Shown here piece by piece: positions 18,549 through 44,144 of a stretch of DNA of 64,000 nt. The notes below the pieces were generated by a model. The model had not been told where the DNA came from. It did not search any database and saw only the letters and a program-made list of their open reading frames with translations. This DNA is from Hydrogenobacter sp. T-2. GTDB lineage: Bacteria > Aquificota > Aquificia > Aquificales > Aquificaceae. The stretch's first letter is position 1. Every line of letters begins with the position of its first letter. The stretch spans positions 1,060,041 through 1,124,040 of the forward strand of contig NZ_CP117180.1 of the NCBI RefSeq assembly GCF_033971325.1, given 5' to 3'. Position numbers and translations under genes: made by a program.

Positions 18549-18776
18549 TTACTTCCTCAACAGGCTAAAAAGAAGGGTAAGAAGTAAAGAGAAGACTACA
18601 CTCAGTATTATGGAAGTGCCGAGGGGAAAGTAGAAAGTAAAGTTATCCCTTTTTATCACAATGTCCCCTGGAAGTCTTCCGAGCCCAAGGGGAAGTTTCT
18701 CAAAGAAGGTAAGCAGTAATCCCAAGATGAGGAGAACAAAGCCCATTAGCAAAAGCACCTTGCCCACCTCGCTCAT
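18549..18776 (-). CDS. DUF2905 small membrane protein
   Basis: A 75-aa protein with two membrane helices (residues 6-24 and 50-72) and between them the conserved PLGLGRLPGDIVIKRDNFTFY segment, which is diagnostic for the DUF2905 family. Function is unknown. It overlaps the flhB stop by 4 bp (ATGA) and lies 9 bp before purK. Confidence 0.8.
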   Translation of the reverse strand: MSEVGKVLLLMGFVLLILGLLLTFFEKLPLGLGRLPGDIVIKRDNFTFYFPLGTSIILSVVFSLLLTLLFSLLRK

Positions 18777-19819
18777 GCGGTAAGCCTCCTTTTCCTAAAC
18801 ATTATGAAGGCTATAATTTCTGCAACAGCCCTGTAGAACTTTGGAGGTATTTCCTCTCCTACTTCTACCACAGGATACATGGCTCTTGCGAGCTCCTCTT
18901 TCCTTATAACTGGCACACCACTCTCGTTGGCTATGCTAACTATCCTTTCCGCTATAGCTCCCTTTCCCTTTGCTAAAACCTTTGGTGCTTTGTCTCCTTC
19001 TTCAGGGTTGTATCTTAAAGCTATGGCTATGTGTGTAGGGTTTGTGATGACAACGCTTGCCTTTGGAACTTCTTTCATCATCCTACCTCTGGCAAGCTGT
19101 CTCATACGCCTTTTTATGGCAGACTTTATCTGAGGGTCTCCTTCTTGCTGTTTGTATTCTTCCTTTATCTCCTCCTTACTCATCCTTATTCTTCTCTCGT
19201 AATCCCACCTTTTGTAAGCATAATCAAGCAAGGCTATAAGTATTGCAAAAACGCTAAGCACTAAGATTAACTTAAAGGTAAGCCTCAGAGCGTAAAGCAG
19301 GAAACTTGAAGCGTCTTGGGAAGGAGCACTAAAAAGGTTATACAAATCTCCCTTAAGTATGAAGTAGGAAATTACCATAAAAAGGGACACTTTTAGTATA
19401 TTTTTAAAGAGGTCAAAGGCGGTGTTAAGGGAAAAAATCCTCTTTAGACCTTCAAAGGGGTTTAGCCTTTCCCACTTAAACTGGAGAGGTTTTAGGGTAA
19501 ATATAAAGCCAAACTGACCTACATGTGCAAGCACCACAGTAAGCAATGTAATAAGAAATAGTGGCAAAAGCATTCTTGGAAAACGTTGGCTTGCATACTC
19601 AACCGCAGAAGATAGGCTCATAGAAGGGTTATCCACAATAAAATGCACAAAACCTACGACCTCATAAAAGAGATAAGCACCTATAAAAAACAAGACAACG
19701 GTGGACAGAAACACCGTTAAGGAAGATGCGATTTCTGGGCTTTTTGCTACATTTCCCTCTTCCCTTAATTTTTTACGCCTATATGGCGTTGCCTTTTCTG
19801 TCCTATTTTCTTGAGCCAT
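18773..19819 (-). CDS. flhB: Flagellar export apparatus protein FlhB
   Basis: FlhB controls substrate switching in the flagellar type III exporter. The N-terminus ENRTEKATPYRRKKLREEG is the family signature. Four membrane helices occupy residues 30-210, followed by a cytoplasmic autocleavage domain with NPTH in VVITNPTHIAIALRY. The full-length 348 aa contrasts with the C-terminal-only paralogue at 43887-44144. It sits head-to-tail with fliR (stop and start share one base). Confidence 0.95.
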   Translation of the reverse strand: MAQENRTEKATPYRRKKLREEGNVAKSPEIASSLTVFLSTVVLFFIGAYLFYEVVGFVHFIVDNPSMSLSSAVEYASQRFPRMLLPLFLITLLTVVLAHVGQFGFIFTLKPLQFKWERLNPFEGLKRIFSLNTAFDLFKNILKVSLFMVISYFILKGDLYNLFSAPSQDASSFLLYALRLTFKLILVLSVFAILIALLDYAYKRWDYERRIRMSKEEIKEEYKQQEGDPQIKSAIKRRMRQLARGRMMKEVPKASVVITNPTHIAIALRYNPEEGDKAPKVLAKGKGAIAERIVSIANESGVPVIRKEELARAMYPVVEVGEEIPPKFYRAVAEIIAFIMFRKRRLTA

Positions 19820-24304: not shown

Positions 24305-25279
24305 TTAGGTTATTTCTTCTTCGTGGTCTTCCTCTTCCCTTGATTTTACTATTCTACAGATGGTTTCGTAATTTAGAAGACCACAAACCTCTCCCAAGTC
24401 TGGCTCGTTATTGGGTGTTAAATTACGCAAAGTTTGCACTTGTCTATCCGTTGGTCCTTTACCATAGAGGTTTATGAGATTGGAAACTTCTCTTTCAGTC
24501 AGAAGCCCATTATCAAGAGCGTATTCTACAACCTCATTGCTACTGGAAAAACCTGCGGATGTTAAAAGGTCAACGAGAGGTTTGTTTTGGATATAATCTT
24601 TAACCCTTTCGTAGAGCATGCCCGTTATGATAGCATCCCTTAGGTTGTATTCTGCCACCTTCTTGTATTCTTTATTTAGAAAGGCATCTCTCACCTTTGA
24701 ACCGTCCATATCGCCCTTATCTATAGGAAGATTAAGCCTTTTTGCTATAAAGTTGAGAGAGTAGTTGTTCCTACCTACATTAAACAGTTCTCTTAGGTCT
24801 ATGTGGTTTTTGTTTTTGGAAAGAAGGTGTTTATAGAGGGCGACGGGTTTAATGCCCTGTAATATTGTTCTTATTTTGATAAACTCCATATCAAAGTCCT
24901 TTCCGTAAAAGCTAATAAGCTTATCAACATCTTTTAGCTGTTCCCAGAGGAACTCAAGAAGCCTTTTCTCTGCAGAAAGAAGCCCATCTTTTAAAGATAT
25001 AGAGGTATACAGTGTTTCTATGTTTCTACTATCTACTGTGATATTGGACTTTTCTTTTTTATCTTCTTCAGCCATATAAAAGACATATCCTACATTCTCC
25101 TCCAAGAAGAAGAGGGAAAAGGAAATTAAGATGGAAACATAAGGGTTTGTTGCAAGGTCTCTGTGGAAGCCCTCTTCAGAATTGTAGTCCTTTCTACCTC
25201 TAAGATATAAAAGCTCTTCTCCTGTAAGCTCCTCCGTGGGACAAAAGGTCTCAATATCAAAGCTAACAACTTTTTCCAC
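24305..25279 (-). CDS. Stand-alone PolB-type 3'-5' exonuclease-like protein
   Basis: A 324-aa DEDD-superfamily protein without a polymerase domain. Exo I is FDIET (Asp8, Glu10), Exo II is FYGKDFDMEF (Asp130), and Exo III is YNLRDA (Tyr211, Asp215, the DEDDy type). This matches the predicted PolB-related exonuclease family (DNA_pol_B_exo2). Residues 240-324 form an extra helical, acidic tail that I do not recognise. The start is GTG at 25279 after GGGGGAG. Repair or RNA-processing roles are both possible. Confidence 0.75.
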   Translation of the reverse strand: MEKVVSFDIETFCPTEELTGEELLYLRGRKDYNSEEGFHRDLATNPYVSILISFSLFFLEENVGYVFYMAEEDKKEKSNITVDSRNIETLYTSISLKDGLLSAEKRLLEFLWEQLKDVDKLISFYGKDFDMEFIKIRTILQGIKPVALYKHLLSKNKNHIDLRELFNVGRNNYSLNFIAKRLNLPIDKGDMDGSKVRDAFLNKEYKKVAEYNLRDAIITGMLYERVKDYIQNKPLVDLLTSAGFSSSNEVVEYALDNGLLTEREVSNLINLYGKGPTDRQVQTLRNLTPNNEPDLGEVCGLLNYETICRIVKSREEEDHEEEIT

Positions 25280-25360: not shown

Positions 25361-25388
25361 TTGACTGAAATTATATAAAGACTATACT
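25361..25388 (+). promoter_or_regulatory. Sigma-70-type promoter for the CsbD-like repeat protein
   Basis: TTGACT at 25361-25366 and TATACT at 25383-25388, separated by 16 bp, lie in a 131-bp AT-rich divergent gap. The start codon follows at 25411 after AGGAGG at 25398-25403, so this gene has a short conventional leader. Confidence 0.55.
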
Positions 25389-25410
25389 TAAAAGTAAGGA
25401 GGTGGGAAAG

Positions 25411-26820
25411 ATGATAGAGCTAATGCTTAACAAAGAAAGCCTCGCGGTCAGAGAAAAACTTGCCTTCTTTAGAAGCCTTTTACGCTCTGAGATGGAGGTT
25501 CTCAACGAATACTGCGGTGTGGACAATATGCCCAAAAGGTATGCGGTAGAGCTTTGCCACCTGCACAACATAAAAAAGGTTAACATAGCTAGGCTCTTAA
25601 GTATAATTGAGTTCTACGACCCAGATTTTATAAAGACCCTTGCCCTCACAGACCCAAGGGTAAGGAAATTTGTGGGTTATTACTTTGATTTTCTCCGGAC
25701 AAACCCATACGGATATGAAGCTATTGAACCTCAAAACCTCTTTGGAAACTGGGACTTTATAAAATACAAGCTAAAGGTTCTCTTCCCAGAGCTTACCCTT
25801 GATGAGATAGAAAGGTTTAAGTTCAAGAGAAGGGAATTCGTAGAATACGCAAGGAAAAAGACTGGTGAAAGTGAGGAGGTAATAGAATCAAAGCTAAGCA
25901 AGGCAACATGGTATGAAACAGTCCCATACCTTGAACTTGAGGAAGAGATGTCAAAGCAGTGGCATCCTGAACCCATAATGACCGACGAGGACTGGAAGTT
26001 TATAAAAAGACATATAAAGGGAAGAAAGAACGTGGTGATTTTCCAAGATGGGAAGGAAAAGCTCGTTTACGTGGAGGTGGACATACCCGATGAGGAGCTT
26101 GATAAATACAAGAAAGATAGAGATGGGTTAAAAAGACTTCTAATGCAAAAGTATAACCTCCCTGAGGATGGTGCGGAGCAGATACTAAGAAAGGCTGGCT
26201 GGGAATCTGAAACCTACCACATAATACCTCCCGTCCACACGGATGTGGTCTTAGACTATGGAGAAACTGAAAAGGAGTTGGAGGAAGAAGGGAAAGAGGA
26301 AGCAAATGTTAGCTACCATGAGCTTGCCAACTTTATAAGATATCTGGGCGGTCTTGAATTAGAGGAGCTAAACTACTTTGAGCTGATATACGACAAGGTA
26401 GAGCCAGAAGTCCAGAGCATTCTTGACCAGGTCATAAGAACTCAAAGGAGAATACTGGGTAAGCTCTTTGGAATATTCTACACCGTTGACCCGCTTATGG
26501 CGGAAGCCATCCTAACCATAAAGCCAGAAAGGTTTGAGTTTCTAAAATCCCTCACGGTAAAGGAAACGGTTAGAAACAAGGAGTTTAACCTATACTCTAA
26601 CCTTGCTGCGTGGAACATAGTAAAGGATAGGATAGTTTCCCGTTTTCCTGAAGTTAGCTATGAGGAGATAGAGGAGTATAAGGGTAGAAGGCAGGACTTT
26701 GTGAAACTGCTTATGGAGAGGACAAAGAAATCACAGGAAGCTGTAGAAAGAGGGCTTGAGGAGTGCGGATGGCTCAAAAGTGAAGAAATACCTCCTTTCC
26801 TAAGACAGATAGGACCATAA
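25411..26820 (+). CDS. Unknown protein built of three CsbD-like repeats in a duplicated architecture
   Basis: The 469-aa soluble, Glu/Lys-rich protein fits no family I can name as a whole. Numbered from the alternative GTG at 25402, segments 117-170, 198-267 and 404-457 share one pattern: W-x2-IK, a hydrophobic stretch, EEIExYKxxR, then FVxxLxxxTxxS-x-ExVExxLxxxGW. The order of conserved positions resembles the CsbD stress-protein family. The regions before repeats 1 and 3 (about 60-115 and 350-403) also align, for example FYDPDFIKTL with YTVDPLMAEAIL, so the protein looks internally duplicated. ATG at 25411 has AGGAGG 7 nt upstream. Confidence 0.6.
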   Translation: MIELMLNKESLAVREKLAFFRSLLRSEMEVLNEYCGVDNMPKRYAVELCHLHNIKKVNIARLLSIIEFYDPDFIKTLALTDPRVRKFVGYYFDFLRTNPYGYEAIEPQNLFGNWDFIKYKLKVLFPELTLDEIERFKFKRREFVEYARKKTGESEEVIESKLSKATWYETVPYLELEEEMSKQWHPEPIMTDEDWKFIKRHIKGRKNVVIFQDGKEKLVYVEVDIPDEELDKYKKDRDGLKRLLMQKYNLPEDGAEQILRKAGWESETYHIIPPVHTDVVLDYGETEKELEEEGKEEANVSYHELANFIRYLGGLELEELNYFELIYDKVEPEVQSILDQVIRTQRRILGKLFGIFYTVDPLMAEAILTIKPERFEFLKSLTVKETVRNKEFNLYSNLAAWNIVKDRIVSRFPEVSYEEIEEYKGRRQDFVKLLMERTKKSQEAVERGLEECGWLKSEEIPPFLRQIGP

Positions 26821-43440: not shown

Positions 43441-43895
43441 GGGACTTATTAGAAAGGGTTGAGGAGCTTCTTTTACTTCAGGAAAAGTTGGTAAACCTCC
43501 TACTCATTTCTGGCACTCAAAAGGCAAGACTTAGCGTAAACACCGCCTTTGATATTCTCTATTATAACGTTGAGCTTCTTGACATGATAGGTGAACTATT
43601 GAGCTCCCCAGAGGAGCTAAGAGAGGATTATGCGGTTAATCTCATACTTGAAGCCTTGTCTTGGATGGGGTTTATACTTCCTGCGGTGGAGGAATCCTGT
43701 CCCATATTTCTACATGGTTTATTGGAAGTAGACCCCATACAAAAGTTAAGTTCGATACTTAGCTCTCTGGAGGAAGCTCAGAGAAAGAGCGATTACTATA
43801 TACTGCTAAGCACTGCAGAAGAGGTCCATAGGCTTTCAAGTCTTCTGAAGTATCAAATAGCCCTTGCCCGCAGGGCTTATATGAACTTAGCTTGA
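43437..43895 (+). CDS. Helical hypothetical protein downstream of hslU
   Basis: A 152-aa protein that is almost entirely amphipathic helix, Leu/Glu-rich, with no motif I recognise. It is translationally coupled to hslU by ATGA. The convergent FlhB-like gene overlaps its last 9 bp. A flagellin-associated or adaptor-type helical bundle is possible but unsupported. Confidence 0.45.
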
Positions 43896-44144
43896 ACTCT
43901 TTACAGCTTTTATAAAAACGAGCACCTTTGCCACAGCCCTATAGAGCTCTGGAGGTATCTCTTCGTATATTTCCACCTTCATTAATGCGGATATTAGAGC
44001 TTTGTCCTCAAGAACTGGAACGCCGTGTTTTTTTGCAGTTTCTATTATCTTCTCCGCAAGCTCGCCAGCGCCCTTTGCTACAACTACTGGAGCTTTGTCC
44101 CTTCCTTGGTCATACCTAAGAGCTATCGCCTTTTTCTTTTCCAT
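43887..44144 (-). CDS. FlhB C-terminal-domain paralogue (FlhB2-like)
   Basis: An 85-aa protein equal to only the cytoplasmic part of FlhB after the NPTH cleavage site: KKAIALRYDQGRDKAPVVVA, KGAGELAEKIIETAKKHGVP and EIPPELYRAVAKVLVFI. The starting point corresponds to the C-terminal fragment that FlhB autocleavage releases. Known family members are paired with fliK-like genes, as here (2-bp gap). It probably modulates export specificity. Confidence 0.85.
   Translation of the reverse strand: MEKKKAIALRYDQGRDKAPVVVAKGAGELAEKIIETAKKHGVPVLEDKALISALMKVEIYEEIPPELYRAVAKVLVFIKAVKSSS

Follow-up and report, generated by a model that had tools for sequence, protein, structure and literature searches.

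The open reading frame at 25411-26820 of the window, by which we mean the whole 64,000-nucleotide stretch of Hydrogenobacter sp. T-2 DNA that was analysed, is confirmed as a real, conserved and correctly placed gene, and its 469-residue product very probably contains three CsbD modules, here called R1, R2 and R3. The comparisons below establish the relationship of R1 and R3 to CsbD and support that of R2 more weakly. Overall, the best explanation is a non-enzymatic scaffold protein of the cytosol that bears three CsbD modules, a reading to which we give a probability of about one half. The presence of three CsbD-like modules in one large protein, as put forward in a preliminary description of this DNA, is borne out by profile comparison, a blind search of the PDB and a partial structure match, which agree with one another. 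The gene, its upstream signals and the parts of its product are listed here with the basis for each in brackets.

25361-25388, + strand: promoter-like site of sigma-70 type, TTGACT-16-TATACT (10/12 in a consensus scan)
25396-25404, + strand: near-perfect Shine-Dalgarno sequence AAGGAGGTG, 6 nt 5' of the ATG (sequence)
25411-26820, + strand: complete gene, 469 amino acids plus stop (orthologues with the same length and start)
25411-25740, + strand: H1, residues 1-110, helical domain with invariant C35 and C49 (33-orthologue alignment)
25741-25920, + strand: R1, residues 111-170, CsbD-like module 1 (profile comparison; AlphaFold)
25987-26211, + strand: R2, residues 193-267, CsbD-like module 2, diverged (profile comparison; R1/R3 profile)
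26020-26079, + strand: beta-hairpin, residues 204-223, inserted in R2 between helix 1 and helix 2 (DSSP of the model)
26212-26316, + strand: linker, residues 268-302, conserved YHIIPPVHTDV and then a variable acidic stretch (orthologue alignments)
26317-26598, + strand: H3, residues 303-396, second helical domain; a short beta-hairpin precedes R3 (model of residues 300-469)
26599-26778, + strand: R3, residues 397-456, CsbD-like module 3 (profile comparison; match to the 1RYK structure)
26779-26817, + strand: C-terminal tail SEEIPPFLRQIGP, residues 457-469 (conserved through the last residue in orthologues)

The three modules and their relationship to CsbD

Orthologues were aligned (17, then 33), and profiles of the segments 110-172 (R1), 192-268 (R2) and 396-460 (R3) were compared by hhalign, with 60 column-shuffled profiles as controls. 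The pattern W..IK...EEIE.(Y/F)K..R...S.E.(V/I)E..L...W, which the preliminary description had claimed for three segments, occupies residues 114-167 and 401-454, with a diverged version at 195-264, and all the profile scores between segments exceed those of the shuffles. R1 and R3 share 33% identity across 54 columns and reach an hhalign score of 83, the maximum for shuffled columns being 20.8; R1 and R2 score 35 (null maximum 14.7), and R2 and R3 score 50 (null maximum 16.9). R2 is the weakest copy and appears to be a diverged CsbD module with an inserted beta-hairpin, whose strands are assigned to residues 204-212 and 215-223 by DSSP of the AlphaFold model.

Against an alignment of 11 plasmid-encoded CsbD members, the hhalign scores were 35.6 for R1, 28.0 for R2 and 43.3 for R3 (shuffled maxima 16.3, 14.3 and 14.7, respectively), the R2 alignment covering only the second part of the module, after the beta-hairpin. 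As single sequences, R1, R3 and R2 scored 34.2, 36.6 and 21.4 against CsbD, H1 and H3 scored 8.2 and 7.6, and the highest of 180 natural 65-residue segments from the window scored 14.9. A significant CsbD match had been named as the check to make, and R1 and R3 exceed all the shuffled and natural controls, R2 less strongly. In the reverse direction, the repeat profile places 10 of the 11 CsbD proteins above all other proteins of the window, and a blind R1 and R3 profile containing no CsbD sequences ranked E. coli YjbJ first and PA4738, the other solved CsbD, fourth among 177,635 PDB sequences. We count this blind search as the strongest of the tests.

The AlphaFold models rest on five sequences. 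The full-length model has a mean pLDDT of 54, with blocks of 78-88 in R1 (residues 121-160), and the model of residues 300-469 has a mean pLDDT of 68.5, with R3 blocks of 80-93. The expectation that each repeat would fold as a CsbD unit is upheld for R3: in a Foldseek comparison made with the 300-469 model only, this region matches 1RYK with an rmsd of 2.4 Å over 52 columns and a TM score (target) of 0.55 (E 1.9).

Could the likeness to CsbD be convergent, with short amphipathic helical repeats having arisen independently in one Aquificaceae protein? The Pfam CsbD HMM (PF05532) is silent, giving no row for any of the 17 orthologues at E values up to 10, and no canonical CsbD was found in Aquificota (no PF05532 match above cut-off in 136 genomes), both of which would suit convergence. 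So would the E value of 0.013 for the blind match to YjbJ, which is not overwhelming, and a Foldseek E for 1RYK that lies above 1 although the probability is 0.75. Yet R1 and R3 exceed the shuffled and the natural controls by at least 10 standard deviations, both PDB entries for CsbD fall within the top four of the blind profile, and the conserved W, K, R, L/F, G and E/V positions coincide over about 50 gap-free columns. We therefore hold convergence to be very improbable. The silence of the Pfam model indicates a distant homologue of CsbD that Pfam's rule would not count as a member, and, as a true CsbD was found in none of the 136 Aquificota genomes, no source for the module came to light there.

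R2 also raises the possibility of a nucleic-acid (RNA) binding protein, as it resembles the ANTAR RNA-binding domain: 10 of the 17 orthologues gave sub-threshold matches to PF03861, the best with an E value of 0.0026 over 22 residues of the module. All the scores seen are under the Pfam cut-off (15.5 against 27.3 bits for the best member shown), however, and the match covers no more than 22 of the profile's 54 positions. Charge also speaks against RNA binding, the modules being near-neutral and the complete protein acidic (pI 5.3). We regard this reading as unlikely, and an ANTAR identity for R2 was rejected as sub-threshold, too short and weak.

Helical domains, linkers and tail

H1 is mostly helix in the low-confidence full-length model, and H3 has helices at 302-327 and 332-352 and strands at 383-387 and 390-394 in the model of residues 300-469. 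The preliminary description had seen a likeness between the helical parts before R1 and R3 and had proposed a duplication giving helical-CsbD, CsbD and helical-CsbD units in turn. Both DP motifs, D70-P71 and D360-P361, indeed lie before R1 and R3 in the register described there, and R21/R310, E27/E316, N32/N321 and P82/P372 align as well. The statistics are modest: the H1 and H3 profiles score 19.75, which is reached by 2 of 300 shuffles, and the joined H1-R1 and H3-R3 profiles are colinear over 150 columns, with none of 300 shuffles exceeding 100 columns and 2 of them reaching the score. When compared with natural single-sequence segments, the H1-H3 match was unremarkable (15.2, against 26.3 for the best natural segment), and for this reason we grade the homology as suggestive only. 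The duplication is solid for the CsbD halves; for the helical halves we consider it likely, the alignment being suggestive of H1 and H3 as copies too, in which case the gene may have grown from a helical-CsbD unit.

The alignments also revealed invariant cysteines and histidines (C35, C49, H185, H270 and H276 in alignment A1, of which C35 and C49 are invariant in the 33-sequence set as well), and these leave room for a putative catalytic or metal site. That the protein is an enzyme or metal protein so far unrecognised, working through these five residues, is nevertheless rather unlikely, as they are spread over different domains and linkers, a structural disulfide would explain C35 and C49 equally well, and no enzyme family matches the 469-residue protein. 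Taken whole, the protein has no counterpart among Pfam, NCBIfam or PDB entries, and its N-terminal sequence shows neither an obvious export signal nor a membrane segment.

The tail is similar to the stretches that follow R1 (TVPY) and R2 (IIPPVHTDV), and the three segments W167-YETVPY, W264-ESETYHIIPPVHTDV and W454-LKSEEIPPFLRQIGP are alike by eye. This likeness would explain why the C terminus is conserved to the last residue. It also bears on the idea of a degenerate ferritin-like (EncFtn) cargo for encapsulin, with the tail as its loading peptide, which would accord with the EncFtn entries that Foldseek lists for the low-confidence full model (most with a probability of 0.84-0.98) and with the fact that almost every genome that has the gene also has an encapsulin, in four of them within about 10 kb of it. 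The 50 matches listed for the C-terminal model, which is the better one, do not, however, include EncFtn, and the EncFtn profile scores only 10.6 against H1 and 14.9 against H3 (shuffled maximum 18.6). The ferroxidase ligands of EncFtn proteins are a helix-1 Glu and a helix-2 ExxH, and the orthologue alignment contains no conserved ExxH ligands in the corresponding helices. Nor does the tail have the form LTVGSL / GSLGIGSLK, the C-terminal loading-peptide consensus for family 1 encapsulin cargo (PMC8346489). It is also unchanged in a genome with a different encapsulin type (G023), and the T-2 genome has a separate 299-residue ferritin-like protein ending LTVGDLRKKDA. With a profile match at chance level, a separate ferritin-like protein that ends in a typical loading peptide and a tail like the other post-module segments, the cargo reading was dropped as scarcely credible.

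As an observation on the encapsulin system itself, the T-2 encapsulin gene (L062:9137-9985, G000:C1 at ~1.419 Mb) has no recognisable adjoining cargo gene, and the 299-residue ferritin-like protein, which is in two parts, is encoded about 730 kb away (L110:1594-2493, G000:C1 at ~0.688 Mb), making this a split system. In G023 the different encapsulin type (38% identity) adjoins its ferritin-like cargo, which ends LTVGSLFKKH.

The gene, its upstream signals and its distribution

The gene runs from the ATG at 25411 to the TAA stop at 26818-26820 and is single-copy in the T-2 genome. The ATG was chosen over a GTG at 25402 because orthologues begin at the same Met and the spacing of AAGGAGGTG suits the ATG. 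The strong ribosome-binding site and the consensus-like promoter of the preliminary description were both found, the latter as a promoter-like site: AGGAGGTG is near-invariant at a constant position upstream of orthologues, and TTTATTG and TATA-like elements recur at a matching distance upstream of several of them. The high expression that these signals had suggested finds no support in codon usage, the gene's codon adaptation being 0.716 (rank 12 of 59 ORFs in the window) and the mean of the reference operon 0.752; these figures are approximate, as the reference set, taken from ribosomal and EF-Tu genes of T-2 itself, includes one ORF that is probably not ribosomal.

Among 136 Aquificota genomes, 43 carry the gene, all of them Aquificaceae. 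In Aquificaceae genomes with a complete gene, the R1/R3 profile finds R1 and R3 and nearly always R2 too, and it finds nothing else convincing among the 136. The preliminary description had asked how far the family extends beyond Aquificae, and in the collections covered here it stays within Aquificaceae: viral contigs yielded no relatives, and peptide-pattern searches of GTDB contigs returned close relatives only, none beyond this family. Several complete or near-complete Aquificaceae genomes (G067, G056, G015, G024 and G078) have no match to the gene, and G064 has a decayed copy, a 152-residue open frame in which internal deletions have taken out parts of H3 and R3 (L131:1356-1811, G064:C40), which adjoins a dnaB-like gene as in G066.

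The genomic neighbourhood varies. In the genus of Hydrogenobacter sp. T-2 the gene precedes apgM-like and mqnC-like genes; other genera have different neighbours, and a metF-like gene lies convergently downstream in several genera. As the neighbours differ between genera, context gives no function, and a function based on an operon was dropped for this reason. A divergent gene for a PolB-type 3'-5' exonuclease (24305-25279, - strand; PF10108, E 1e-15) adjoins the gene in the window's genus and not in the other genera looked at, and two other genera have a glycosyltransferase-9-like gene directly upstream on the same strand (L103:7555-8499 and L104:7738-8676). Elsewhere in the window, a stand-alone FlhB C-terminal-like gene (43887-44144) encodes an 85-residue protein sharing 52% identity with the C-terminal domain of FlhB (18773-19819).

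Proposed role and comparison with known systems

Based on its architecture, the protein would be an Aquificaceae-specific cytosolic protein built by duplicating a CsbD-type helical module, in the order helical domain, CsbD, CsbD with a beta-hairpin insert, helical domain, CsbD and conserved tail. Three CsbD surfaces on a helical framework might then serve as a non-enzymatic scaffold or adaptor for some partner; taken by itself, this scaffold role is a tentative proposal. It would likely belong to stress or maintenance physiology and not to core metabolism, because several complete relatives can dispense with the gene and the widespread CsbD proteins of other organisms have a general-stress role. 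The literature presents CsbD as a general stress factor whose molecular role is not known (PMC10294668).

A more speculative idea, to which we give little weight, is that single CsbD proteins self-associate and that a lineage-specific fusion of three of them on a duplicated helical frame would reveal CsbD as an oligomerising or multivalent binding module. If so, the protein would offer a handle on the molecular role of CsbD. A natural multi-module CsbD found across a thermophile family supplies three diverged copies to compare, in a presumably thermostable protein that would be useful for structural and pull-down work, and it exemplifies a family wholly missed by Pfam and NCBIfam. A literature search for CsbD repeats in Aquifex found nothing. 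The multi-CsbD architecture looks new, and the earlier statement that the layout belongs to no described family agrees with the lack of Pfam and NCBIfam matches.

Set beside known systems, the protein shares with ANTAR (PF03861) a sub-threshold stretch of 22 residues in module 2, and differs in that this match is partial, under the cut-off and outside a response-regulator context. With the EncFtn-like encapsulated ferritins (PF22277; for example Rru_A0973), it has in common a helical-hairpin resemblance seen in the low-confidence model only, whereas profile similarity, ExxH ligands and an LTVGSL-type peptide are absent. The closest comparison is with the CsbD family, PF05532, with E. coli YjbJ (PDB 1RYK), P. 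aeruginosa PA4738 (PDB 1YWW) and B. subtilis CsbD as members. Shared features are a matching fold, the conserved W of helix 1, the motif (L/V)(T/S)xx(E/D)(I/L) with which helix 2 opens, the patch (G/K)(K/R)R..(F/L) and the terminal helix-turn-helix, although no module of the 469-residue protein reaches the Pfam cut-off. A further mark of the family is induction by general stress through sigma-B or RpoS; the promoter-like site ahead of the present gene is of sigma-70 type. Known CsbD members are single-domain proteins of 60-70 residues, whereas the 469 residues here accommodate three diverged copies together with a pair of helical domains, an inserted beta-hairpin and a tail that is conserved.
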